Assembly (NCBI GenBank): GCA_002254365.1
Contig: NIUT01000098.1
Coordinates: forward strand, 1 to 45,333
Length of the DNA: 45,333 nt
Direction: 5' to 3'
DNA from: Nitrospira sp. UW-LDO-01
Lineage (GTDB): Bacteria; Nitrospirota; Nitrospiria; Nitrospirales; Nitrospiraceae
Below the pieces are notes generated by a model. It was not told the origin of the DNA. It did no database searches and saw only the letters and a list, made by a program, of their open reading frames with translations. Below are positions 14,999 to 34,198 of the stretch, one piece after another. How positions within the stretch are numbered: the stretch's first letter is position 1; each line of letters opens with the position of its first letter. The translations under genes and the position numbers were made by a program.

Positions 14999-16558
14999 AT
15001 GCATCCCATTGATCTCAACTACCGAGCTCTGCTTGAAGTGACGAATGTCCTCAATTCGCAGCGGGACACGGACAGCCTCTGGCGGGCCATAGCCGGACAG
15101 ATCAAACAAGTGGTGCCATGGGAGCGCGCGGGTATTACCCTCTATTGTCCGGAGTCCGACTCCTTCCACTTCTACGCTGTCGAGACCAGCCTGCCCGCCC
15201 GTGTATTGCAGCGCGACGCCGTGATTCCTCGGGTCGGCAGCGCTGTAGGCTGGGTCTACAAGAATCACCGCGTGCACATCCGACCCGACCTAAAGATGGA
15301 ACGGCCCTTCAGCGAGGATGATTTGTATTGGAAAGAAGGGCTGGGACGGATGATCAATCTTCCATTGCTGACCGGTGAGCGGTGTCTGGGCACGTTGAAC
15401 ATCGGAAGCATTCAATCAGGGGAGCCGGACCACGACGATGTGGAATTTCTCTGCCAGGTCGCGACGCAGATCGCCTATGCGATCGCGCACGTGCAGGCCT
15501 ATGAGGAGATCGACTTGTTGCGTCGGCAACTGGCACACCAGAATGCCTATCTGGTCGAGGAGATCAAGCTCACGCACAACTTCGGGCCAATAGTGGGAGA
15601 AAGTCACGCGTTACGCAAGACTCTGAGCCAGGTGAAGGCCGTCGGCCCGACCTCGACGACGGTGTTGATCACAGGAGAGACGGGAACCGGGAAGGAACTA
15701 CTCGCCCGGGCGATCCATGAGTTGAGTCCGCGCCGAAACAAACCCTTCATCCGCGTGAACTGTGCGGCCATCCCGACGGGTCTCATGGAGAGTGAATTGT
15801 TTGGCCATGAACGGGGGGCGTTTACGGGAGCCGACCAGCGGCGGATCGGCCGCTTCGAGCTGGCCGACGGTGGAACGCTGTTCCTCGACGAGATCGGCGA
15901 GCTACCTGTTGAAGCCCAAGTCAAACTACTGCACGTGTTGGAAAACGAAGAGATCGATCGGGTCGGGGGAACCCACTCCGTGCCGGTGGATTTACGCATT
16001 GTCGCAGCCACGAATGTCGATCTGCTGTCGGCGATCGAAGAAGGGCGGTTCCGATCGGACCTGTACCACAGATTGCGCGTGTTCCCGCTGGTTTTGCCTC
16101 CGCTGCGGGAACGACCCGACGATATCCCTCTCATAGCCCGACATTTTCTCGAACGTTGCCGGGTCAAACTGAAACGGCCTCTGCTCGAATTGAGTGAGAG
16201 CACAATCGAACGGTTGTTGCGCTACTCGTGGCCCGGTAACGTGCGTGAGCTTCAGAACGTCATTGAGCGAGGAGTGATCCTATCAAGCTCGTCGGTCGTC
16301 GATATCGACGACCAGTTCCTCATCCCTTCTGCATTCATGACGCACGTGCCTCCGCCGAGCAATCTTCAAGACGTCGAGCGCGAGCATATCAAATGTGTGT
16401 TGGAGCAGACCCAAGGGCGGATCTACGGTCCGTATGGCGCTGCAACTCGACTTGGTCTCAACCCCAGTACGCTCAGGAGTCGTATGAAGAAACTGGGAAT
16501 CAGCCGAACGGCCGGCTTTAATCTTCAACCACCCATGCATTCCTCAGGCAACGCCTAA
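14999..16558 (+). CDS. sigma-54-dependent activator, GAF-AAA+-Fis
   Basis: 519-residue enhancer-binding protein. A GAF-type sensor fills about residues 15-165, followed by a short coiled linker. The AAA+ domain has Walker A GETGTGKE near 225, the sigma-54 contact loop GAFTGA near 274 (intact), Walker B GGTLFLDEIGE near 291 and the arginine-finger region RFRSDLYHRL. The C-terminal Fis-type helix-turn-helix (residues ~455-500) includes GAATRLGLNPSTLRSRMKKL. Order and length match FhlA/NorR-class regulators; the ligand is unknown. Sigma-54-type promoters before the next two genes make these its likely targets. The 293 bases upstream show no clear promoter. Confidence 0.93.
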   Translation: MHPIDLNYRALLEVTNVLNSQRDTDSLWRAIAGQIKQVVPWERAGITLYCPESDSFHFYAVETSLPARVLQRDAVIPRVGSAVGWVYKNHRVHIRPDLKMERPFSEDDLYWKEGLGRMINLPLLTGERCLGTLNIGSIQSGEPDHDDVEFLCQVATQIAYAIAHVQAYEEIDLLRRQLAHQNAYLVEEIKLTHNFGPIVGESHALRKTLSQVKAVGPTSTTVLITGETGTGKELLARAIHELSPRRNKPFIRVNCAAIPTGLMESELFGHERGAFTGADQRRIGRFELADGGTLFLDEIGELPVEAQVKLLHVLENEEIDRVGGTHSVPVDLRIVAATNVDLLSAIEEGRFRSDLYHRLRVFPLVLPPLRERPDDIPLIARHFLERCRVKLKRPLLELSESTIERLLRYSWPGNVRELQNVIERGVILSSSSVVDIDDQFLIPSAFMTHVPPPSNLQDVEREHIKCVLEQTQGRIYGPYGAATRLGLNPSTLRSRMKKLGISRTAGFNLQPPMHSSGNA

Positions 16559-16700: not shown

Positions 16701-16715
16701 GGGCATGGCAGTTGC
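16701..16715 (+). promoter_or_regulatory. sigma-54 promoter (-24/-12) of the multicopper oxidase
   Basis: GGGCAT-N5-TTGC matches the consensus TGGCAC-N5-TTGC: the GG and GC pairs are exactly 10 bases apart and TTGC is perfect. It lies about 80 bases before the oxidase start, next to a sigma-54 activator gene, which raises confidence. Confidence 0.65.
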
Positions 16716-16793
16716 GTTGGGTCTTGAGAGGCCCCATCCGGCTTTTACAAGATGAGGCCGGTGATTCTATATCCAGGTGAAGGAGGATGGCCG

Positions 16794-18023
16794 ATGCACA
16801 GGAAAAGATATTGGTGTGAGGAGCGACAAGCAGGGGTGCTGAAGCTCGTGAGCTGGTCTGTCTGTGGTCTGATATTGACAGCGCTGCTCGACGTAGGAAG
16901 TATAAAAGCGGAAACATCTCTTCCTCATCATGAAACCGGCGCAGAACAGAACATGACACCTGCTGTTCACGCCATGACCCATCAGCCCACACCTTGGGCC
17001 GAGCAGCTCAAGGGTCAAACAATCGTCGAAGATACGTTGGAAGGGCGGCCGGAACGGACCGCCATGGTCGAACGTCAGCACCGGCGCATCATGGAACAAA
17101 TGGAGAAAGATACGCAGGTCCAACGGACCGACGGCTACTTCAACAACGTGAACATGATGCATCAGTACGGCGCGGGCGGGCAAGATGTACTGCTCATGTC
17201 GAATTCCGGCGTGGAGCCGGTCTCGACTCTGGGTGGGCACTGTCCTGCCGCGGCACCGATACGGCAGTACGATATCTCTGCGATCAACGTTGAAATCTCG
17301 CTTAACATGTGGCTCGACTTCTATCCCGGCTACATGTACGTACTCACCGAGCATATCGACAAGGTGCGCGATGAGGAAGCGAAGAACCGCGAGTCCCGCG
17401 AAAAGGACGGCTATGATCCCGGGGCGGTGAAGAACGGATTGCAAAGCCAGTGGATTCAACCGTTGGTCATCCGAGGCAATCAGGGCGATTGCGTCAAGAT
17501 GACACTTCGCAATCAGTTGGAGGGCGGCGAAGAGGTCAGTCTCAACGTTCACGGTTCCAGCATGGTAATCGCATCAACCGGCCAGCCGGCGACCACGACG
17601 AATCCGGACAGCATCGCGACCAAAGAAAAAGCCGTGGAACTGGAGTGGTACATCCCACCGACCCAGCAGGAAGGCGGACGGCAGTTTCACTCGTACAGCA
17701 ATGACCGGGAATTGACGGTCATGGGCCTCTTCGGCACATTCGTGATCGAGCCGAAAGGATCCGAGTACCTCGATCCGTTGGGGACTGGGGAACCGACGAC
17801 CATGAAGAGCGGGTGGCAGGCGATCATCAAGAACGGTACGGGTCCGGATTTTCGGGAGTTTGTCATCATCTACCATGAAGTCGGCGATGAGGCGTTCCGT
17901 CCGCTCAACAAGAAAGGCGATTTCCTTCCGCAGCGGGATCCCCTGACCGACGTCTATCGGCCGGTGGCCCGCGCGCTGAATTACCGGAGCGAGCCCTTCG
18001 GCGTCGACAATATGCAGGCGTAA
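16794..18023 (+). CDS. giant multicopper oxidase, N-terminal part up to in-frame stop
   Basis: First 409 residues of a large periplasmic multicopper oxidase. The ATG at 16794 follows AGGAGG and starts a signal peptide (hydrophobic LVSWSVCGLILTALL, probable cleavage near ...SIKA). An in-frame ATG at 16752 lacks a ribosome site. One cupredoxin unit is complete, with GLFGTFVIEPKGSEYLDP near residue 310, a block repeated twice in the downstream part. Its copper motifs are degenerate (QFHSYSND where the active unit has WHDHALG). The frame ends at TAA 18021-18023, ten codons before the next ATG in the same frame. Alone this fragment has no full copper site and is unlikely to be an enzyme. Confidence 0.85.
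   Translation: MHRKRYWCEERQAGVLKLVSWSVCGLILTALLDVGSIKAETSLPHHETGAEQNMTPAVHAMTHQPTPWAEQLKGQTIVEDTLEGRPERTAMVERQHRRIMEQMEKDTQVQRTDGYFNNVNMMHQYGAGGQDVLLMSNSGVEPVSTLGGHCPAAAPIRQYDISAINVEISLNMWLDFYPGYMYVLTEHIDKVRDEEAKNRESREKDGYDPGAVKNGLQSQWIQPLVIRGNQGDCVKMTLRNQLEGGEEVSLNVHGSSMVIASTGQPATTTNPDSIATKEKAVELEWYIPPTQQEGGRQFHSYSNDRELTVMGLFGTFVIEPKGSEYLDPLGTGEPTTMKSGWQAIIKNGTGPDFREFVIIYHEVGDEAFRPLNKKGDFLPQRDPLTDVYRPVARALNYRSEPFGVDNMQA
18021..18023 (+). other. in-frame TAA interrupting the multicopper oxidase
   Basis: Codons on both sides are in one frame: ...GVDNMQA-TAA-HEYFGFEDESMAYSAY.... The block across the stop aligns with a repeat later in the same protein, where NYRSEP is likewise followed by ...DPATPLI and a GDP turn. 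So the ten codons after TAA are protein sequence, not spacer. A single C-to-T change in a CAA (Gln) codon would produce it. TAA followed by C is a comparatively readthrough-prone context. Confidence 0.85.
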
Positions 18024-18053
18024 CACGAGTATTTCGGATTTGAAGATGAGTCG

Positions 18054-21000
18054 ATGGCCTATAGCGCGTATACGTTCGGTGACCCAGCCACAACCATCCC
18101 GCGCAGCTATTTAGGCGATCCGGCGAAGTTTCGACTCGTACATGGAGGGTCGGAAGTGTTTCATTCCCACCATCCCCACGGCGGATCCATCCGTTGGCCG
18201 CGCAGTCCCCGTGCCATCGACGAAATGCCGCTCTGGCACACCGCTAAGAACGGACCGGTCAAATACCCAGTCATTCGCACGAAGTCCGACCGAGTGGATG
18301 TCGAAGTCATTGGGCCCTCAGAGACCATGGATCTGGAAACGGAATGCGGGTCGGGCCTTTGCCAGCAATTGGCCGGCGATTTTCTATTTCACTGCCATGT
18401 TGCCCATCACTATATCGCCGGCATGTGGGGCTACTGGCGTGTGTACAACACGCTGCAACAAGAAGAGCGCCACAACGACGTAATGCCTGATCTTCGCGAG
18501 CTTCCTGATCGAGCAGGCCGACTGAAGAACGGAGTGGGTTCGGATGAGCTGATCGGTCAGACGGTTGACTGGTTCGGCAAGCAGTTCAGGATCGTCGAGA
18601 AAGGCAAGACCGATTGGAAGGCCGATCCGGCTGTCGTCACGATCAAAGATTGGGTGACCATGCAGTTGCCCCCTCAGGGTAAGCCCGGTCACAAAGATGA
18701 TGAAAAGGGGCAAACGCTTTCGTATGACGCGAGCGTCCTCGATTGGGCCTGGCAGGGCAATCGCGCGATGACGGAACGGGAAAATGCCACTCCGAATCCC
18801 CGCTACCAATCGGCGACCCCGGGCCAGCGTCTGCCCATTGTTTTCGAGTCGGCCACGGGCAAAATCGCGTGGCCTCATCTGAAGCCACACTTCGGGCGGC
18901 GTGTCCCGTTCTCACAGAATCATAATCCTTCTCCATGGCTGGATATGATTCATCTTGATGAGGATGGGCTGCCCAGTTCTTACCCGGCAAAACCGGGGGA
19001 GAACGGCCGCTGGAGTATGTGCCCTGAAAACGCCGGATCGAAAACATACAACGTGCACTTCATCAAGACGCCGATGAAGCTGGCTGATAAGCAAGGTGAT
19101 ACACCGGCGATCGTGGACGCAGACGGGCTGATTTACGTGCTGCACGAGGAAGAAGCTCAAGCTCGAAAGAGCGACGTCAAATATCCGCTGGTCGTGCGCG
19201 CCAATATTTATGACTGCATCGACTGGATGTTGACCAGCGAATGGGAGGACGACGACCACATCAACTTCCATGCGTCGAAGATCAATACGCACTGGCATTT
19301 CTTGCAGTTCGACAACCAGTCTTCGGACGGGGTCATTACGGGATTCTCGTATGAGCAATCCGTGCGTCCGTTCACGATGCTGGAAAAAAAGGTAAACAAA
19401 GGTCTTCCCTTGCCGATGAATACCACTTTCACCAAGCCAGCTAAGAAAGGCGACCGGGTCATTACGGTCAAGAACGCCGCGCAATACCAGCCCAATGTCG
19501 AAATCTTGATCGGGGCGGATAACGTCGAAGGCAATGAGATCGGCCGCGTAAAATCCGTTACCGGCAATCAAATTACCCTCTTCCGGCCACTGAAACACGG
19601 TCATCCGGTGAAGGATATCGTGACGGTGGAGTTCGTCCGGCAGAGATTCTGGGTCGATTCCGACGTCGGAACGGTTTTCTGGCATGACCATGCACTCGGT
19701 CGGGTCACCTGGCCGCATGGAGGGTTCGGCACGATCATCATCGAGCCCGTCGGATCGACCTATCATGACCCCAAGACCGGGAAGCAGATCCGGAGCGGAC
19801 CGATTGCCGATATCCGTACGACCGAGCCTGTTGGGCATGGCGTGAACGGCAGCTTCCGGGAGTTGATGGTGCAGCTCAATGACACGGTGCCGCATACGGT
19901 CAACATCGTCACGGCAGGCAATCCTCCGGGGCAGCCTATCGAAGTGGCCCTGGAAGCTGGCAAAACGGTTTCGTTTCCAATGCCCGAAATCATACCGATG
20001 ACGCCGATGGCCTTCCTCAATGGCGGGACCCATACAACCGGAGGTGGCTTGAACTTCAAAGCCGAGCCAATCTCCAGCCGTCTAACGGCCAATCCGAATG
20101 CCTCGAGGCTCTTCAGCAGCGTCGTCCACGGCGATCCCTATACGCCGATGGTGCGGGCCTACCTAGGAGACACGGTGGTGTTCCGTCTGCTGCAAACCAT
20201 GGCGAACGAGACGATGGTCTGGACGCTCTCCGGTCACACATATCTCACCGAGCGGTATGCAGGAGATGCGAACCGGAAGAACTCCATTCATATCGGCATT
20301 GCCGAACGCTACGACCTGGTAGTGCCGCAAGCGGGCGGTCCGCGGCTCCAACCGGGCGACTATATCCATTTCAACGGCCGTGCTTCCAAGTTCTCCGAAG
20401 GAGCCTGGGGCATCATGAGGGTGCTGGACAAGGAGGCCTCAGACCTACAAAAGCTGCCCGCCGGCTATAGCCGGAGAAATGAAATCCCGAAGCCGCTGGC
20501 AGTGTGCCCATCGGAGGCTCCGGTGAAAAGCTTCAACGTCGTGGCGATGGATTATCCCTCGATGAAGCTGAACCCCAAAGCGCCCGATACCATTGAGATC
20601 GACTTTGAGCGGACGATTCAGCTGACGAATCCACACGCGAAGATTTATGTCTTGGAGGACGAAATCTCGACGGTCGCTACAGGCCTCCAGCCGATGCCGC
20701 TCACCTTGCGGGCTAATGTGGGGGACTGCATCAAGGTGAAACTCACGAACCGGATGAAAGAAGGGCGCGCTTCTTTCTCGGCTATCGGGTTGGCGTTTGA
20801 TCCCAAGGATTCACTGGGGGCGAACGTCGGCAACAATCCCGGCGAGCAGACGGTCGCACCGGGAGAGAACCGGATTTATACCTATTATGCAGATCCTTTC
20901 CTTGGTGAAACGGCCTCACTGGTGTGGGATTGGGGCAATGTGATGACCCATCCGCGCAACGGTCTCTATGGGGCGGTGGTGATCGGCCCCAAGGGCGCGA

Positions 21001-21701
21001 AGTACCGGGATCCGAAGACCGGTGCGGACCTTTCGAACAAGAACAGTTGGACGGCCGACGTCATCGTGGACCGGACGATAGCGGGATATGAGCATCGGGT
21101 GAACTACCGCGATGTGGCCCTGTTCTTCCAGGATGAAGATAACATCATCGGAACGAGTTTCATGCCCTATGTGCAGAATACCGCCGGTCTCACAGCGGTG
21201 AACTACCGATCGGAGCCGTACAAATTACGAGAGGGAAACGGCTGCACGCTTGGCAAGATGTTCCAGCCCTGTGTCGCCGACAAACCGGAGGATCCGGCGA
21301 CCCCCCTGATCGAAGCACATGCGGGAGATCCGGTGCGTATCCATGTGTTCGGCGCGAGCAACGAGCAGAACGGCATGTTCAGCGTCGAGAGGCACGAATG
21401 GCCGATCGAGCCGTTCATGCAGGGGGCGGACATGATCAGTGTCGTGGAGTTCGCCGGATCGGAAACGATCGATGCCTTTATTCCGAGCGCCGGTGGTCCG
21501 TTCCGCATGCAAGGAGACTATGTCTGGAGTAATCAGCGCTTGCCCTATTCCCAGTCTGGACAATGGGGCTACCTGCGGGTATTGCCATCCGGTGACCAGC
21601 GCATCCTGCCTCTTGCCGGGGTTACCCCTTCAATGAAACGGACTGATGCGGCACCCCCAACCTCAAGCCTAGGCTTGAGCCGTGTGTCCGCGATTCAGTA
21701 G
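18054..21701 (+). CDS. giant multicopper oxidase, copper-binding part
   Basis: 1,215 residues in the same frame as the upstream fragment; read through, the protein would be 1,635 residues with three two-domain cupredoxin units. Numbering from 16794, the copper motifs are H-x2-H-x-H at 457-462 (FHSHHPHG), HCH-x3-H-x4-M at 533-544 (complete type 1 site, Met axial), HWH at 833-835 and HDH at 964-966. This is order III-IV-I-II, so the trinuclear cluster would form between units 1 and 2. Unit 3 has lost its ligands. The family includes large MnxG-like oxidases, but the substrate is unknown. No ribosome site precedes the ATG at 18054, and this part alone has no signal peptide. Confidence 0.85.
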   Translation: MAYSAYTFGDPATTIPRSYLGDPAKFRLVHGGSEVFHSHHPHGGSIRWPRSPRAIDEMPLWHTAKNGPVKYPVIRTKSDRVDVEVIGPSETMDLETECGSGLCQQLAGDFLFHCHVAHHYIAGMWGYWRVYNTLQQEERHNDVMPDLRELPDRAGRLKNGVGSDELIGQTVDWFGKQFRIVEKGKTDWKADPAVVTIKDWVTMQLPPQGKPGHKDDEKGQTLSYDASVLDWAWQGNRAMTERENATPNPRYQSATPGQRLPIVFESATGKIAWPHLKPHFGRRVPFSQNHNPSPWLDMIHLDEDGLPSSYPAKPGENGRWSMCPENAGSKTYNVHFIKTPMKLADKQGDTPAIVDADGLIYVLHEEEAQARKSDVKYPLVVRANIYDCIDWMLTSEWEDDDHINFHASKINTHWHFLQFDNQSSDGVITGFSYEQSVRPFTMLEKKVNKGLPLPMNTTFTKPAKKGDRVITVKNAAQYQPNVEILIGADNVEGNEIGRVKSVTGNQITLFRPLKHGHPVKDIVTVEFVRQRFWVDSDVGTVFWHDHALGRVTWPHGGFGTIIIEPVGSTYHDPKTGKQIRSGPIADIRTTEPVGHGVNGSFRELMVQLNDTVPHTVNIVTAGNPPGQPIEVALEAGKTVSFPMPEIIPMTPMAFLNGGTHTTGGGLNFKAEPISSRLTANPNASRLFSSVVHGDPYTPMVRAYLGDTVVFRLLQTMANETMVWTLSGHTYLTERYAGDANRKNSIHIGIAERYDLVVPQAGGPRLQPGDYIHFNGRASKFSEGAWGIMRVLDKEASDLQKLPAGYSRRNEIPKPLAVCPSEAPVKSFNVVAMDYPSMKLNPKAPDTIEIDFERTIQLTNPHAKIYVLEDEISTVATGLQPMPLTLRANVGDCIKVKLTNRMKEGRASFSAIGLAFDPKDSLGANVGNNPGEQTVAPGENRIYTYYADPFLGETASLVWDWGNVMTHPRNGLYGAVVIGPKGAKYRDPKTGADLSNKNSWTADVIVDRTIAGYEHRVNYRDVALFFQDEDNIIGTSFMPYVQNTAGLTAVNYRSEPYKLREGNGCTLGKMFQPCVADKPEDPATPLIEAHAGDPVRIHVFGASNEQNGMFSVERHEWPIEPFMQGADMISVVEFAGSETIDAFIPSAGGPFRMQGDYVWSNQRLPYSQSGQWGYLRVLPSGDQRILPLAGVTPSMKRTDAAPPTSSLGLSRVSAIQ

Positions 21702-21951: not shown

Positions 21952-22021
21952 TTGCTCCTCCAGTAAGACTGCTCTCGCGGTAATTCATGTGCCCCGAGAC
22001 AACAACGAGGAGGGTCAGGCT

Positions 22022-23941
22022 ATGACACGCTTGTCGAAGCGATCGTTTTGGAGCAGGCACTGGATCATGATCCCCTGGCTCTTGGTCCTATCGATTTTGC
22101 TGGTTCAGTCCGTAGTCGTAGAGACACAGATTTGGGCGGCGGAGTCCGCAGCGACCGTCGATGCAGAGTCGAAGACTCAAACAGGGAGGGATGTCTACTA
22201 TAAAACCGAGGGGATCGTGAGCGGGCAGCCGGCCCCCAAAACATCCGACGACAGCCATCATTATCCTCGGTACAACTTCGAAAGTCGTGTGCTGATCTGG
22301 TTTGCGAACCAGCAACACTTGTACTACGGGAGCTTCGTGTTGGCGGTTCCGATTTTTTGCATGATCATCGAGTTCCTCGGGGTGGTCACCAAGGATCGAA
22401 CTCTCGGCAAACGTTACGACCGGCTAGCCTACGACTTCATCAAGATCAGCCTCACGGCCTATTCGCTGACCGCGATTCTCGGGGGCATTCTCTTATTCAC
22501 ATTTATCACGTTATATCCCTCTTTCTTCGGCTACCTCTCCGGTATCTTTCGGCCCGTCATGCATCTCTATGCGCTGCTGTTCGTCGCGGAGAGCGGTATT
22601 TTGTACATCTATTACTACGGTTGGGACAAGATGAGCGAAGGGTTTCTGAAATGGATTCACCTGAGCATGGCGGTCGTGCTGAACATCGTCGGCACCGTCC
22701 TGATGTTCCTCGCCAACAGCTGGATCGGATTCATGATGTCCCCGGCCGGTGTGAACGAGGAAGGTCGCTACCTCGGCAACATCTGGCACGTAATCCACAC
22801 GGCGCTCTGGAATCCGCTGAACCTCCACCGAATGCTGGGCAACATGGCGTTCGGTGGAAGCGTCGTCGCCGCCTACGCCGCCTACCGGTTTTTGGCGGCA
22901 AAGACCAACGACGAGCGAGCGCACTATGACTGGATGGGCTACGTCGCCATGTTCATCGCGGTCTTGTTTCTCATTCCGCTCCCGTTTGCCGGCTACTGGC
23001 TGATGCGGGAAGTCTATGCGTACCGACAACAGATGGGAATCACATTGATGGGAGGCCTGCTGGCCTGGCTGTTCATCATCCAGGCGACGATGATCGGAGC
23101 CCTCTTTCTCACAGCCAGTTATTACCTCTGGCAGTGCATGTTGCGCATGCGCGGGGCCGAAAAGTATCTACGCTACGTGAAATACCTGCTGTTCCTGATG
23201 GCGGCGGGTTTCTTGGTGTTCATCACGCCGCACACGATGGTCATGACGCCGGCTGAGCTCAAAGCGATGGGTGGTCAGCAACATCCGGTACTCGGCAACT
23301 TCGGGGTCATGTCGGCGAAAAACGGTGGGATCAACGTCATGATCGTCACGACGGTCTTGAGCTTCATCTGGTACCAACGCGGCAACAGCATTCCGACCGT
23401 GTCGTGGGCTAAATTCGGCAACATCTTCATGGGAACGTTTTTCACGATGGCCTATATCAACATCATTTGGCTGTCCGTGTACGGGTATTACATCCCCGCC
23501 AACGTGCGGGTCGGGCTCTCTGTGCCGCAAGTCGCATCTACGCTCTCGTGCCTCTTCTTCATGACGGCTATCAACCTCGTTATGCTCCGCGGCGCTAAGC
23601 GGGAGGGGCCCGTCGAATGGGGGCGGATGACCGTGCGCTCTCAGTATGCGCTCATTATGCTCGCGACGGAGTTTACGTGGATGATGGCTCTGATGGGCTA
23701 CATCCGCTCGTCGGTGCGTCTGTTCTGGCACATCAACGAGATTATGCGCGACAACTCTCCGTGGGCGTACACCCATACCGTGGGCTTTGCCGCCAACATG
23801 ATTTCGTTCAACGTCCTGTTCTTTTGGATGACCATTCTGTTCGTGTTCTGGCTGGCGTCGCTGGGCACAAAGACCGCTCCGCAGGACACGATGGTCGTGG
23901 TGCCTCCGGCATGGTCCCCGCCATACGCCGTCAAACAATGA
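22022..23941 (+). CDS. cytochrome bd-like oxidase (CydA-like membrane subunit)
   Basis: 639-residue polytopic membrane protein related to cytochrome bd subunit I, longer than CydA (~520). A signal-like segment (IMIPWLLVLSILLVQSVVV) is followed by a periplasmic stretch and roughly a dozen helices. Haem-ligand candidates are His99 (ANQQHLYYGSF) and His269 (NLHRMLGNMAFGG). CydA hallmarks include a helix AESGILYIYYYGWDKMSEG with Glu190 and the ANSW...SPAG block. No separate CydB is adjacent. The ATG at 22022 follows GAGGAGGG; an earlier GTG (21989) lacks one. Nitrospira encode such bd-like proteins, some proposed as terminal oxidases; here pairing with the multicopper oxidase suggests shared electron flow. 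Confidence 0.88.
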   Translation: MTRLSKRSFWSRHWIMIPWLLVLSILLVQSVVVETQIWAAESAATVDAESKTQTGRDVYYKTEGIVSGQPAPKTSDDSHHYPRYNFESRVLIWFANQQHLYYGSFVLAVPIFCMIIEFLGVVTKDRTLGKRYDRLAYDFIKISLTAYSLTAILGGILLFTFITLYPSFFGYLSGIFRPVMHLYALLFVAESGILYIYYYGWDKMSEGFLKWIHLSMAVVLNIVGTVLMFLANSWIGFMMSPAGVNEEGRYLGNIWHVIHTALWNPLNLHRMLGNMAFGGSVVAAYAAYRFLAAKTNDERAHYDWMGYVAMFIAVLFLIPLPFAGYWLMREVYAYRQQMGITLMGGLLAWLFIIQATMIGALFLTASYYLWQCMLRMRGAEKYLRYVKYLLFLMAAGFLVFITPHTMVMTPAELKAMGGQQHPVLGNFGVMSAKNGGINVMIVTTVLSFIWYQRGNSIPTVSWAKFGNIFMGTFFTMAYINIIWLSVYGYYIPANVRVGLSVPQVASTLSCLFFMTAINLVMLRGAKREGPVEWGRMTVRSQYALIMLATEFTWMMALMGYIRSSVRLFWHINEIMRDNSPWAYTHTVGFAANMISFNVLFFWMTILFVFWLASLGTKTAPQDTMVVVPPAWSPPYAVKQ

Positions 23942-26444: not shown

Positions 26445-28922
26445 TCAGTTCTCGGAGGTGTCCTCCGCCGTTGCATCCTCTCGCTCGGCGGCGTCCGCCA
26501 ATCTGGCCACTGCGACGACTCGATCTCCCTCCCCATCGAGATCGAGAATGCGAACACCCTGGGTGTTCCGTCCGATTTCGCGGATATCATCAACCTTGCA
26601 GCGTAGTACTTTCCCCTGCGCAGCCATCAACATGATCTGATCGTCATCTCGTACTTGAAGGAAGCCCACGGCCAACCCGTTGCGCTCGGTGGTCTTGACG
26701 CTGATAATGCCCTTTCCGCCACGACCTTGCACCCGATATTCGCCTACCGGTGTCCGCTTGCCGTAGCCGCCTTCCGTGACGGTCAAAATCGAGGCAGTCG
26801 AGTCTGGAGTCATGGTTTCCATCCCGATGACCTCGTTGCCCTCTTCGAGTGTGATCCCCTTCACACCATGCGCCATCCGACCCATCGGCCGGACTTCCTC
26901 TTCTTTGAATCGAATCGTAATGCCTTGTCGCGTCCCCATTAAAATTTCTCGCTGTCCGTCGGTCAGCTGCACTCCGATCAACTTGTCACCACCTTCGAGT
27001 CCTAACGCAATGATCCCGCCCTGCCTGGGGTTGCTGAATGCGGACAATTCCGTCTTCTTGATAATTCCTTTTTTCGTCGCCATCACGATATACCGGTCAT
27101 CACGAAACTCTTTGACCGGCAAGGTTGCGGTCACTTTTTCACTCCCGGCCAACGCAAGGAGATTGACGAGTGCTTTTCCTTTCGCGGACCGACTGGCCTC
27201 AGGAATCTCATGGACTTTCAGCCAAAAGACTTTCCCTGCATCAGTAAAAAAGAGCAACGAATCGTGGGTGGAGGCCGAAAAAAGCGTCTCGACGAAGTCC
27301 TCATCCTTGATACCCATCCCGATCTTGCCTTTCCCTCCACGTCGCTGAGCCCGGTAGAGGGACACGGCATTCCGCTTGATGTATCCGGAATGAGAAATGG
27401 TGACGATCACTTCTTCCGCTGCAATCAGATCTTCGAGACTGATTTCGGCTTCTTCCTTGACGATCTGGGTCCGGCGGTCATCTTTGTACGTTTCACGAAT
27501 CTCAGTGAGCTCGTTCTTGATGATGGTGCGCACCAACGACTCGCTGGCCAGCACGGATCTCAGATATTCAATCTGTTTCAGAACCTCCTGGTACTCTTCG
27601 ACGAGTTTGGCCCGCTCCAGCTGCGTCAAGCGCTGCAGCCGCATGTCAAGAATCGCCGTGGCTTGGATCTCGGTCAAGCCAAACTCCCGCATCAACCCTG
27701 CACGGGCTTCATCCGGCGATTGCGATCGTCTGATGAGCGCGATGACGGCATCCAAATGATCCAGTGCGATCTTGAGTCCTTCGAGTATATGCGCGCGTTC
27801 CTCCGCTTTCCTGAGCTCGAAGGCGGTCCGCCGCACGACGACTTCGCGTCGATGCTCAAGGAAATGACGAAGGATCTGCTTGAGAGTGAGAATCTCAGGG
27901 CGATTGTTCACCAGCGCCAACATGATGACGCCGAAGGTCGTTTCGAGTTGGGTATGCTTATACAGATTATTCAAGACCACCAGGGGGATTTCGTTCCGTT
28001 TGAGCTCGATCACCACCCGCACCCCTTCGCGATCAGACGATTCGTCTCGGAGATCGGAGATGCCCTTGATGCGATCGTCCTGGATCAAGTCCGCAATTTT
28101 TTCGATCAATTTGGCTTTGTTGACTTGATAGGGGATTTCCGTGACGATGAGCCGTTCTCGCTCCGTCCGTTCATCGGTCTCGACCACGACTTTTGCCCGC
28201 AGTGTCAGAAGTCCGCGTCCGGTCTCATAGGCTTCCTTAATTCCGCCCATGCCATAGATGAAACCAGCCGTAGGAAAATCCGGCCCAGGGATCTTCTGCA
28301 TCAACTGGGCGATCGTCACATCGGGATTCTCCAACAGGAGGAGCAAGCCATCGATGATTTCACGGATATTGTGTGTGGGAATGTTGGTCGCATAACCGAC
28401 CGCAATGCCCCCCGCCCCATTGATCAAGAGGTTCGGAACTCTCGTGGGAAGCACCAGTGGTTCTTGCCGTGACTCGTCATAGTTCGGGCCGAAATCAACG
28501 GTTTCTTTGTCGATATCGGCCAACATCTCCTCAGCCAGCTTCGTCATACGGGCCTCGGTGTACCGCATGGCCGCCGCTGAGTCTCCGTCCATTGACCCAT
28601 AGTTGCCCTGGCCGTCCACGAGGGGATAGCGCATATTGAAGCCCTGCGCCATCCGCACAAGGGTGTCGTAGATCGCCGAATCCCCATGGGGGTGATAGTT
28701 CCCCATGATTTCACCGACGATTTTGGCTGATTTGCGGTAGGCTCGATTGGAGGCCAAGCCCATTTCGCTCATGCCGAAGAGGATCCGCCGATGCACCGGC
28801 TTCAACCCGTCACGGACATCGGGCAATGCCCTCCCCACGATGACGCTCATGGCGTAATCGAGGTAGGAGGACTTCATCTCGTCTTCGATCGCGATATGAC
28901 CTAACCGTTCATCAGGGGGCAT
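26445..28922 (-). CDS. gyrA: DNA gyrase subunit A
   Basis: 825-residue gyrase A chain, which breaks and rejoins DNA for negative supercoiling. The catalytic Tyr is in AAAMRYTEARM near residue 120, the QRDR reads HPHGDSAIYDT with Ser and Asp as in sensitive enzymes, and the C-terminal beta-pinwheel starts near 510. The GyrA box appears as QRRGGKG, with a second related QGRGGKG in a later blade; their presence argues for gyrase over topoisomerase IV. Start ATG at 28922 follows GGAG. A repeat copy fills the gap to gyrB. Confidence 0.96.
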   Translation of the reverse strand: MPPDERLGHIAIEDEMKSSYLDYAMSVIVGRALPDVRDGLKPVHRRILFGMSEMGLASNRAYRKSAKIVGEIMGNYHPHGDSAIYDTLVRMAQGFNMRYPLVDGQGNYGSMDGDSAAAMRYTEARMTKLAEEMLADIDKETVDFGPNYDESRQEPLVLPTRVPNLLINGAGGIAVGYATNIPTHNIREIIDGLLLLLENPDVTIAQLMQKIPGPDFPTAGFIYGMGGIKEAYETGRGLLTLRAKVVVETDERTERERLIVTEIPYQVNKAKLIEKIADLIQDDRIKGISDLRDESSDREGVRVVIELKRNEIPLVVLNNLYKHTQLETTFGVIMLALVNNRPEILTLKQILRHFLEHRREVVVRRTAFELRKAEERAHILEGLKIALDHLDAVIALIRRSQSPDEARAGLMREFGLTEIQATAILDMRLQRLTQLERAKLVEEYQEVLKQIEYLRSVLASESLVRTIIKNELTEIRETYKDDRRTQIVKEEAEISLEDLIAAEEVIVTISHSGYIKRNAVSLYRAQRRGGKGKIGMGIKDEDFVETLFSASTHDSLLFFTDAGKVFWLKVHEIPEASRSAKGKALVNLLALAGSEKVTATLPVKEFRDDRYIVMATKKGIIKKTELSAFSNPRQGGIIALGLEGGDKLIGVQLTDGQREILMGTRQGITIRFKEEEVRPMGRMAHGVKGITLEEGNEVIGMETMTPDSTASILTVTEGGYGKRTPVGEYRVQGRGGKGIISVKTTERNGLAVGFLQVRDDDQIMLMAAQGKVLRCKVDDIREIGRNTQGVRILDLDGEGDRVVAVARLADAAEREDATAEDTSEN

Positions 28923-28933
28923 CTAGTTCTCCA

Positions 28934-29058
28934 CGAATGCTGAAAATGGTCACCGGCTTCGTTCTCGGCTCGAAAAGTTCCTCAACGTACCCCAGAGGGT
29001 ACGCCTCCGGTCTTTTCTTGCCTACGGCCTTGCCGGATGATCATTTTGAGCATCCTCA
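28934..29058 (+). repeat. palindromic intergenic repeat, family R1, copy B
   Basis: About 125 bases between gyrB and gyrA. Ends are imperfect inverted repeats (GAATGCTGAAAATG and CATTTTGAGCATCCT). Inside are GGCTTCGTTCTCGG, CCTCAACGTACCCC, a mini-hairpin GTACCC-CAGA-GGGTAC, and CGGCCTTGCCGGATG. These match copies A, C and D in order. It sits just upstream of the gyrA ribosome site, so it lies in the leader of gyrA or in the gyrB-gyrA mRNA. Confidence 0.7.
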
Positions 29059-29085
29059 TAGTCAAAGGACATCCGCAGCTACGTC

Positions 29086-31557
<2,472 letters not shown>

Positions 31558-31697
31558 CTACCTATTCCATCCTCGTGATCAGAGGACTTAAGTCAGTTTG
31601 GGACAAAGCTTTCGTCCATGGGGTAACACCTAGGATTCGATCTGTGGAGCCGTCCAGAAATAGAGGAACTATGATCGTGAGTGCGTGCAGCATTCCG

Positions 31698-32831
31698 CTA
31701 AATCTTCACCGGCATGACCACGCACTTGAAACCGGGGCTTTCCGGTTCCTGCACCAGACAGGGACTCAGCGGCGTCTCCATCTGGAGGGAAATCGTTTCA
31801 CCCTCCATCACACTAAAGACATCCAAGAGGTAGCGCGCGTTGAAGCCGGTCGTCAGGATTTCTCCCTCATAGCGGGCGGGCAATTCTTCCGTCGCTTCGC
31901 CGAAATCAGGGCTGGCAGAAAATAGCGTCATCTTGCCGGGTCCAAAGGAAAGCTTTACCGCGCTGGCCTTGTCTTTCGACAGGACCGACACACGACGCAG
32001 GGCACTCTCCAAATCCGTTCGAGTGACACTGATGGTCTTGCCTCCATCTTTTGGGATCACCTGTTGGTAGTTCGGGTAATTGCCCTCCATCAGCCGTGAC
32101 GTCAGGAGCAGGCCGCTCTTTCGAAAGATCATGAGATTTTTCGAAAACCCGATGAGCGGTTCCCCATCTCCGCCTTCTTCCAAGAGATGGCGAATCTCGT
32201 GCGCAGCTTTCTTGGGAATAATCGCTTTCATTTCCTGGGGAGCGCCCGTCGCCTTGGCCCCCGCTTTGCCGACCTCCTGTTCTGCGACAGCCAGACGGTG
32301 GCCGTCCGTGCCGACTAATCGGAGGGTGGTCTTCTTTTCAGTGACAATCAAGTTGACTAGGAGTCCGTTGAGAATGTAGCGGGCATCATTGTCTCCGGCG
32401 GCAAACAGCGTCTTTCGAATCAATTCGAGCAACCCGTCTCCAGCCAACGGCATTAAGCCCTCTCGCTCGATCGCCGGTAACGCCGGATAATCGGAGCTGG
32501 GCAGGCCCACGATTTTGAACTGGCTTCTCCCAGCCTGAATCGTCGTCCAGTTATTGTCCGTCGCCGTCAGCTCGATGTCACCAGCCGGCAACTCCTTCAC
32601 GATTTCAAAGAGTTTCCTAGCGGAGATGGTCACCCCTCCTGTCGACAATACCGTCGCCTTGTACAGACCTCTCATGCCGAGCTCAAGGTCTGTCGCCACG
32701 ATCTCTACTCCGTCCTGCTTGGCTTCCAACAGGATATTCGACAGAATCGGCATGGTGTTGCGTTTTTCCACGACGCCCTGTACACGCTGAAGGCCCGTCA
32801 ATAACTCATCTCGCCCGATCCGTACTTTCAT
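31698..32831 (-). CDS. dnaN: DNA polymerase III beta sliding clamp
   Basis: 377-residue beta clamp that tethers polymerase III to DNA. It begins MKVRIGRDELLTGLQRVQGVVEKR and carries the LPILSN-like MPILSNILLEA, YPALP, DGHRLA and the C-terminal VMPVKI, all standard. The ATG at 32831 has GGGGGAG six bases before; an ATG at 32846 lies inside that ribosome site and is rejected. It follows dnaA by 23 bases, the usual order. Confidence 0.96.
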   Translation of the reverse strand: MKVRIGRDELLTGLQRVQGVVEKRNTMPILSNILLEAKQDGVEIVATDLELGMRGLYKATVLSTGGVTISARKLFEIVKELPAGDIELTATDNNWTTIQAGRSQFKIVGLPSSDYPALPAIEREGLMPLAGDGLLELIRKTLFAAGDNDARYILNGLLVNLIVTEKKTTLRLVGTDGHRLAVAEQEVGKAGAKATGAPQEMKAIIPKKAAHEIRHLLEEGGDGEPLIGFSKNLMIFRKSGLLLTSRLMEGNYPNYQQVIPKDGGKTISVTRTDLESALRRVSVLSKDKASAVKLSFGPGKMTLFSASPDFGEATEELPARYEGEILTTGFNARYLLDVFSVMEGETISLQMETPLSPCLVQEPESPGFKCVVMPVKI

Positions 32832-32854
32832 GGAATGCTCCCCCATCGACGTCG

Positions 32855-34198
32855 CTAACTGCGAAGGATCTGCTCTTTTAATGATTCGATCGTCGTCTGC
32901 AATCCTGTATCGGTCTCCTTGGCTTTCGTCACCTGGCGGCAGGCGTGAATAATGGTCGTATGGTCTTTCCCACCGAATTGCCGCCCAATTTCAGGGTATG
33001 AAGCGTCCGTCAGTTCCCGACAGAGATACATCGCAATCTGTCGAGGATGCACGAGTGTCTTGCTTCGGCGTCGAGATTTTAGTTCCGCGATCTTGACGTG
33101 AAATTGAGCGCAGACGACCTCCTGGATGTCATCCATCGCCACAACTTTTTTCTTATCTCCAATGAGGTCCCGCAGAACAGTTTTTGCCAGGTCGAGACTA
33201 ATGACTTGCCCGGTGAGCGAAGCATAGGCCCCTAGCCGGACGAGGCTTCCCTCTAATTCCCGGATGTTGCTCTTCATGGTGGTTGAAAGAAACTGGATCA
33301 CATCCTCGGGAAGTTTGACTCCTTCATCCTCTGATTTTTTCCTCAAAATCGCGATTCGTGTCTCGACATCCGGAGGCTGTAAGTCTGCGATCAGGCCCCA
33401 CTCAAATCGGGAGCGTAACCGTTCCTCGATATCGGGCATGTCCTTCGGAAACCGATCACTCGACAACACAATTTGTTTATGGCCTTCATAGAGCGCGTTG
33501 AACGTATGGAAAAACTCTTCCTGTGTCCGTTCCTTCCCAACGAGAAATTGAATATCATCGATCATCAGCATGTCGATGTGTCGGTAGCGCTTTCGGAGAT
33601 CCATCATTTTATCGTAACGGATCGAGTTAATGACCTCGTTTGTGAATTGCTCGGTCGTTAAGTAGGCAATTCGGAGGTCTCTCTGTTCCGCCACATGATT
33701 CCCTATGGCGTTGAGGAGATGCGTTTTTCCGAGTCCCACACCGCCATAGATAAACAAAGGGTTGTAGGTTTGCCCTGGTTGCTCCGCCACCGCCATACAA
33801 GCCGCATGGGCAAACTGATTTCCAGCCCCGACCACAAAATTCCGGAACGTATATTTTGGGTTCAGGAGAATACCACGCCGTGGTTTTGGTGGGGACTGAC
33901 CCTTTCCCCCCTGTGGCGAGGATGGTGGCTCGGTCGGAGATGCTGTTGCCCTCTCACGCACAATAAACGTGACAGTCAGAGGTTCACCCCCACTTGCTAT
34001 TGCCACAGCTTCAGTAAGGAGAGCTCCATAGTGTGTCTCCAACCACTCTCCAAAGAACTTATTAGGCACCCCGAGGTAAACTGTTGAATTTTCAGCTCGA
34101 TCGAATTGTACCGGCAGAAACCAGGTATCGAAAACTTGTTTAGGGACCTTCTGTTGAACGTACTCAAGGGCCTCATCCCAGTCAATTTCTATGCTCAT
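32855..34198 (-). CDS. dnaA: chromosomal replication initiator DnaA
   Basis: 447-residue initiator. Domain I is at the start (EIDWDEALEYVQQKVPKQVFDTWF), and a Pro/Ser-rich linker follows near 115-135. The AAA+ domain has Walker A GGVGLGKTH near residue 155 and Walker B MLMIDDIQF. Domain IV ends with the DNA-binding signature GGKDHTTIIHACRQV. It binds DnaA boxes at oriC to open the duplex; a perfect box lies 41-49 bases upstream of its start, which also allows autoregulation. Confidence 0.97.
   Translation of the reverse strand: MSIEIDWDEALEYVQQKVPKQVFDTWFLPVQFDRAENSTVYLGVPNKFFGEWLETHYGALLTEAVAIASGGEPLTVTFIVRERATASPTEPPSSPQGGKGQSPPKPRRGILLNPKYTFRNFVVGAGNQFAHAACMAVAEQPGQTYNPLFIYGGVGLGKTHLLNAIGNHVAEQRDLRIAYLTTEQFTNEVINSIRYDKMMDLRKRYRHIDMLMIDDIQFLVGKERTQEEFFHTFNALYEGHKQIVLSSDRFPKDMPDIEERLRSRFEWGLIADLQPPDVETRIAILRKKSEDEGVKLPEDVIQFLSTTMKSNIRELEGSLVRLGAYASLTGQVISLDLAKTVLRDLIGDKKKVVAMDDIQEVVCAQFHVKIAELKSRRRSKTLVHPRQIAMYLCRELTDASYPEIGRQFGGKDHTTIIHACRQVTKAKETDTGLQTTIESLKEQILRS

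Follow-up and report, generated by a model that had tools for sequence, protein, structure and literature searches.

An in-frame TAA in one of three MnxG-like multicopper oxidase genes of Nitrospira sp. UW-LDO-01

Positions 1 to 45,333 of contig NIUT01000098.1 of Nitrospira sp. UW-LDO-01 (GenBank assembly GCA_002254365.1), referred to here as the window, were analysed. An in-frame TAA at positions 18021-18023 breaks an otherwise open frame of 1,650 codons (16752-21701), whose predicted product is, by its sequence, a giant multicopper oxidase of the periplasm and a distant relative of the manganese oxidase MnxG. The stop is probably a very recent, isolated nonsense mutation in a redundant gene copy, either fixed or polymorphic in the sampled strain. 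Most likely the case is one of a broken spare copy, a strain variant or a sequence error rather than of a new way of making the protein. The finding is ordinary. The features of the locus are listed in Table 1.

Table 1. Positions, strand and supporting evidence for features of the oxidase locus in the window.
Feature	Position	Strand	Basis
GAF / sigma-54 activator gene, directly upstream of the oxidase	14999..16558	+	Pfam PF00158, PF02954, GAF
Sigma-54-like -24/-12 element GGGCATGGCAGTTGCG	16701..16716	+	GG and GC kept, 3 mismatches to consensus; putative function
Shine-Dalgarno-like region before ATG 16794	16780..16787	+	Anti-SD duplex energy
Upstream oxidase piece: leader and degenerate Cu-oxidase_3 domain	16794..18020	+	PF07732 match on 16752-18020
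In-frame TAA	18021..18023	+	Gln codon in all 111 relatives read
Downstream oxidase piece with four copper-binding motifs, to the natural stop	18024..21701	+	ORF 18054-21701
Cytochrome bd-like oxidase gene, directly downstream, uninterrupted	21989..23941	+	Pfam PF01654

The initial annotation had described the TAA as splitting a single unbroken frame, and this was borne out: the open reading frames 16752-18023 and 18054-21701 share the frame of the stop and give one continuous protein of 1,649 residues if the TAA is read as a residue. The TAA is codon 424 when counted from ATG 16752 and codon 410 when counted from ATG 16794. The latter, which has a strong GGAGG-type Shine-Dalgarno sequence, is likely the better start of the oxidase, with an anti-SD duplex energy of -11.7 kcal/mol for the 20 bases before it, compared with -1.7 kcal/mol for ATG 16752. 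The residues to either side of the TAA can be aligned with those of orthologues without a gap, so the stop is not merely a misread gene end. The closest relative, the orthologue at locus L008, was 88% identical to the upstream piece (residues 63-409) and 93% identical to the downstream piece.

The read-through protein passed the gathering cut-off of the Pfam family Cu-oxidase_3 (PF07732; 50.6 bits against 21), and the upstream and downstream pieces each passed it separately. The upstream piece carries a signal-peptide-like leader and a degenerate Cu-oxidase_3 domain with NVHG and FHSY, while all four His-rich copper-binding motifs (HSHHPHGG, HCHVAHHYIAGMW, INTHWHF and FWHDHA) lie 3' of the stop in a piece with no export signal. 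The contrast drawn earlier, between an upstream piece with a signal peptide and no complete copper motif and a downstream piece with all four motifs and no signal peptide, was therefore upheld. The codons after the TAA had also been said to resemble an internal repeat of the same protein, and three copies of NYRSEP/NFKAEP type were indeed found: NYRSEP...FGDPATTIPRSYLGDPAKFRLV reappears as NFKAEP...HGDPYTPMVRAYLGDTVVFRLL and as NYRSEP...KPEDPATPLIEAHAGDPVRIHV.

The sole strong match among solved structures was MnxG of the Bacillus manganese oxidase complex (PDB 9bxa, phmmer E 2.9e-83). Several stretches match, and the HCHxxxxxxxGMW motif and the motif preceding it align, but the window protein has about 1,630 residues compared with 1,227 in MnxG, and it did not reach the cut-off of the NCBIfam MnxG equivalog NF041487 (140.7 bits against 3100). 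Such oxidases are common in Nitrospira: a search with query residues 70-1060 found a relative in 169 of 175 genomes, all from the taxonomic family of the present one, and N. moscoviensis and Ca. N. defluvii are among the named relatives. The Nitrospina gracilis genome paper describes a multicopper protein of the periplasm, conserved in Nitrospina and Nitrospira, that resembles a Mn oxidase of Bacillus SG-1, clusters with a cytochrome bd-like oxidase and was speculated to act against reactive oxygen (PMC3578206). The predicted window protein is likewise large, periplasmic and from a nitrite oxidiser, and a bd-like oxidase adjoins its gene too; it differs in the in-frame TAA, and the likeness is one of kind and of neighbour, not of traced orthology. 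An AlphaFold model of residues 70-1060, with the TAA as Gln and an alignment of 42 sequences, had a mean pLDDT of 55, worst at and after the stop, and was set aside.

The sigma-54-like element upstream of the gene aligns with one-mismatch sigma-54 elements upstream of the orthologues at L008, L037 and L098. Sigma-54 elements with 0-1 mismatch were found within 1.6 kb upstream of the oxidase at 12 of 90 loci (L008, L032, L033, L035, L036, L037, L049-L051, L098, L099 and L107), compared with the roughly 1.4 that the background rate of this genome would predict; some of the 90 loci are from the same genome or from close kin. The sigma-54 activator gene adjoins the oxidase in some orthologous loci and is 70-71% identical in L037 and L098. 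At these two loci, which belong to N. moscoviensis and one MAG, a gene for a NirK-like two-domain copper protein, recognised by eye, stands between the sigma-54 element and the oxidase (L037:4560-5576 and L098:2783-3805); the window locus lacks this gene, whose sole match in the genome is on contig C77 at 47% identity. The first 55-70 residues of the window oxidase (window 16794-16960) do not align with the leaders of the orthologues, which points to a different origin or to fast divergence. A fusion after deletion, with a leader from the NirK-like protein of N. moscoviensis, was considered; the match to the window leader was weak (score 25) and such an origin is not claimed. On the other side of the oxidase, the bd-like gene has paralogues elsewhere in the genome, the best of them 80% identical on contig C151. 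Further downstream, gyrA, dnaN and dnaA, together with an open reading frame of gyrB size (29086-31554, assigned by size), occupy window positions 26445-34198, which places the oxidase locus close to the likely replication origin.

Orthologues had been proposed as a check for Gln at the site of the stop. Each of the 111 other copies read, paralogues as well as orthologues, had a Gln codon at the aligned position (94 CAG and 17 CAA); a few of them are the same gene from two collections, so that independent copies are somewhat fewer. The four TAA rows in the aligned-codon table all come from the window, in overlapping copies. In the search of the 175 same-family genomes with query residues 70-1060, an internal stop was present only in the window copy among the approximately 150 matches listed. 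The TAA is thus private to this genome. None of the relatives listed from these genomes is split into two genes at the site, which refutes two separate genes as a family arrangement. Separately, in some other Nitrospira genomes (G034:C135, G019:C12 and G029:C5) the oxidase appeared as consecutive partial matches, which may be frameshifts or assembly errors in those copies.

Selective constraint was compared on the two sides of the stop. Against 11 orthologues, dN/dS was 0.05-0.10 before the stop and 0.04-0.06 after it (0.057 for the downstream piece against L008), the same range as between intact orthologues. Alignment of the oxidase gene to the orthologues revealed no frameshift and no second stop. 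Where all other orthologues agree, the window protein departs at 14 residues besides the stop, and that of L008, its closest relative, at 31. The features of a pseudogene are therefore present in part: the gene carries an inactivating lesion where orthologues are intact, and further decay or relaxed selection was not seen, dN/dS being unchanged, as expected if the lesion is very recent. Since the rest of the gene is unchanged in constraint, the gene was lost either very recently or not at all, and as neither a second inactivating lesion nor relaxed selection was seen, nothing independent says that it is dead. Two statements of the initial annotation, that neither half has other stops or shifts and that any inactivation must be recent, agree with the frameshift-free alignment and with an undecayed gene whose dN/dS is that found between intact orthologues.

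Two uninterrupted paralogues of the oxidase, 75% and 66% identical to it, are present in the same genome on contig C122, so that loss of the window copy would be easy to tolerate. The closest orthologues carry CAG at the site, from which TAA would take two changes, and the 75% paralogue carries CAA at the very site of the TAA. Of the 43 Gln sites that are retained in the window and encoded by CAG in L008, 13 are CAA in the window and 30 are CAG. Because CAA is frequent where L008 has CAG, and is present at the site in the paralogue, a single C-to-T step from CAA is reasonable, and a two-step path from CAG is less likely. An invariant Gln codon has become TAA in one of three paralogous MnxG-like oxidase genes. 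We infer that translation would then stop at the TAA and yield an exported fragment without any complete copper site, the remainder of the oxidase would not be made in exported form, and the window copy would be a very young pseudogene, tolerated through redundancy. Recent single-nonsense pseudogenes in multi-copy genes likewise have one stop, no other decay and intact paralogues in the same genome; read-level confirmation apart, the window case, as a putative one, differs from them in nothing but the identity of the gene.

The main rival to a recent nonsense mutation is a fault of sequencing, polishing or assembly, or else a base from a minority strain taken into the draft consensus, with the gene intact in the organism. 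A sequence error would look the same as a very recent nonsense mutation, and we regard it as possible, if rather unlikely. It is consistent with a draft assembly of 230 contigs, with an otherwise pristine oxidase gene under strong purifying selection and with the lack of a stop at the site in any relative among the matches listed. However, the TAA is a lone substitution outside any homopolymer, and modern assemblies more commonly contain errors of another kind. Split genes were also sought in the same genome with a heuristic codon-score scan of 1.44 Mb of N-free sequence, approximately 37% of the genome, in which the TAA ranked fourth. The other high-scoring long-frame cases that were read look like pairs of adjacent genes, the second starting just past the stop, one such junction resembling ribosomal proteins L11 and L1 (identified by eye), and no other long gene in the 1.44 Mb was clearly split by a single stop. 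No cluster of interrupted genes was found there, so errors do not seem to be widespread in the assembly.

It is very improbable that the two pieces are made separately, by reinitiation at ATG 18054 or GTG 18156, and cooperate, or that the downstream piece functions alone in the cytoplasm. GTG 18156 sits just 5' of the first copper motif and is preceded by a GGAGG-like sequence (-9.8 kcal/mol, compared with -7.5 for the 5% tail of random 20-mers). However, that stretch encodes the conserved residues HGGSEV, while the bases themselves are free to differ from one relative to the next, so it is not conserved as a site. ATG 18054 has no Shine-Dalgarno sequence (-3.3 kcal/mol), the downstream piece would not be exported, and no relative among the matches listed has the gene divided at this position. 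The earlier statement that the downstream piece has no ribosome site therefore holds for ATG 18054, but not so clearly for GTG 18156 with its GGAGG-like sequence.

It is less credible still that the TAA is translated, whether as Gln or as some other amino acid, through readthrough, a suppressor tRNA or an altered code, even though an open and constrained frame lies to either side of it. The draft assembly was searched for tRNA genes with the Rfam tRNA model, the hits were typed with ARAGORN, and none of the 43 genes found had a UUA anticodon, although a draft may lack a tRNA gene that the organism has. TAA serves as an ordinary terminator for 7 of the 19 listed genes of the window, RNA structure downstream of the stop was not significant (z -1.29), the stop is kept in no relative among the matches listed, and the 1.44 Mb scanned gave no clear second case. 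Among the explanations first offered, namely readthrough or suppression, a newly dead gene and a base error, the second is the most likely and the third its main rival, whereas readthrough or suppression is not supported. Least credible of all is that low-level readthrough yields a little full-length oxidase, the stop being a down-regulating switch on one of the three paralogues.

Caution is needed with automatic gene models at this locus, as annotation would divide it into a truncated exported protein and a leaderless oxidase, neither of which should be taken for a natural form. If the nonsense mutation is real, one of the three giant multicopper oxidases of this Nitrospira can be lost, which would bear weakly on their role.
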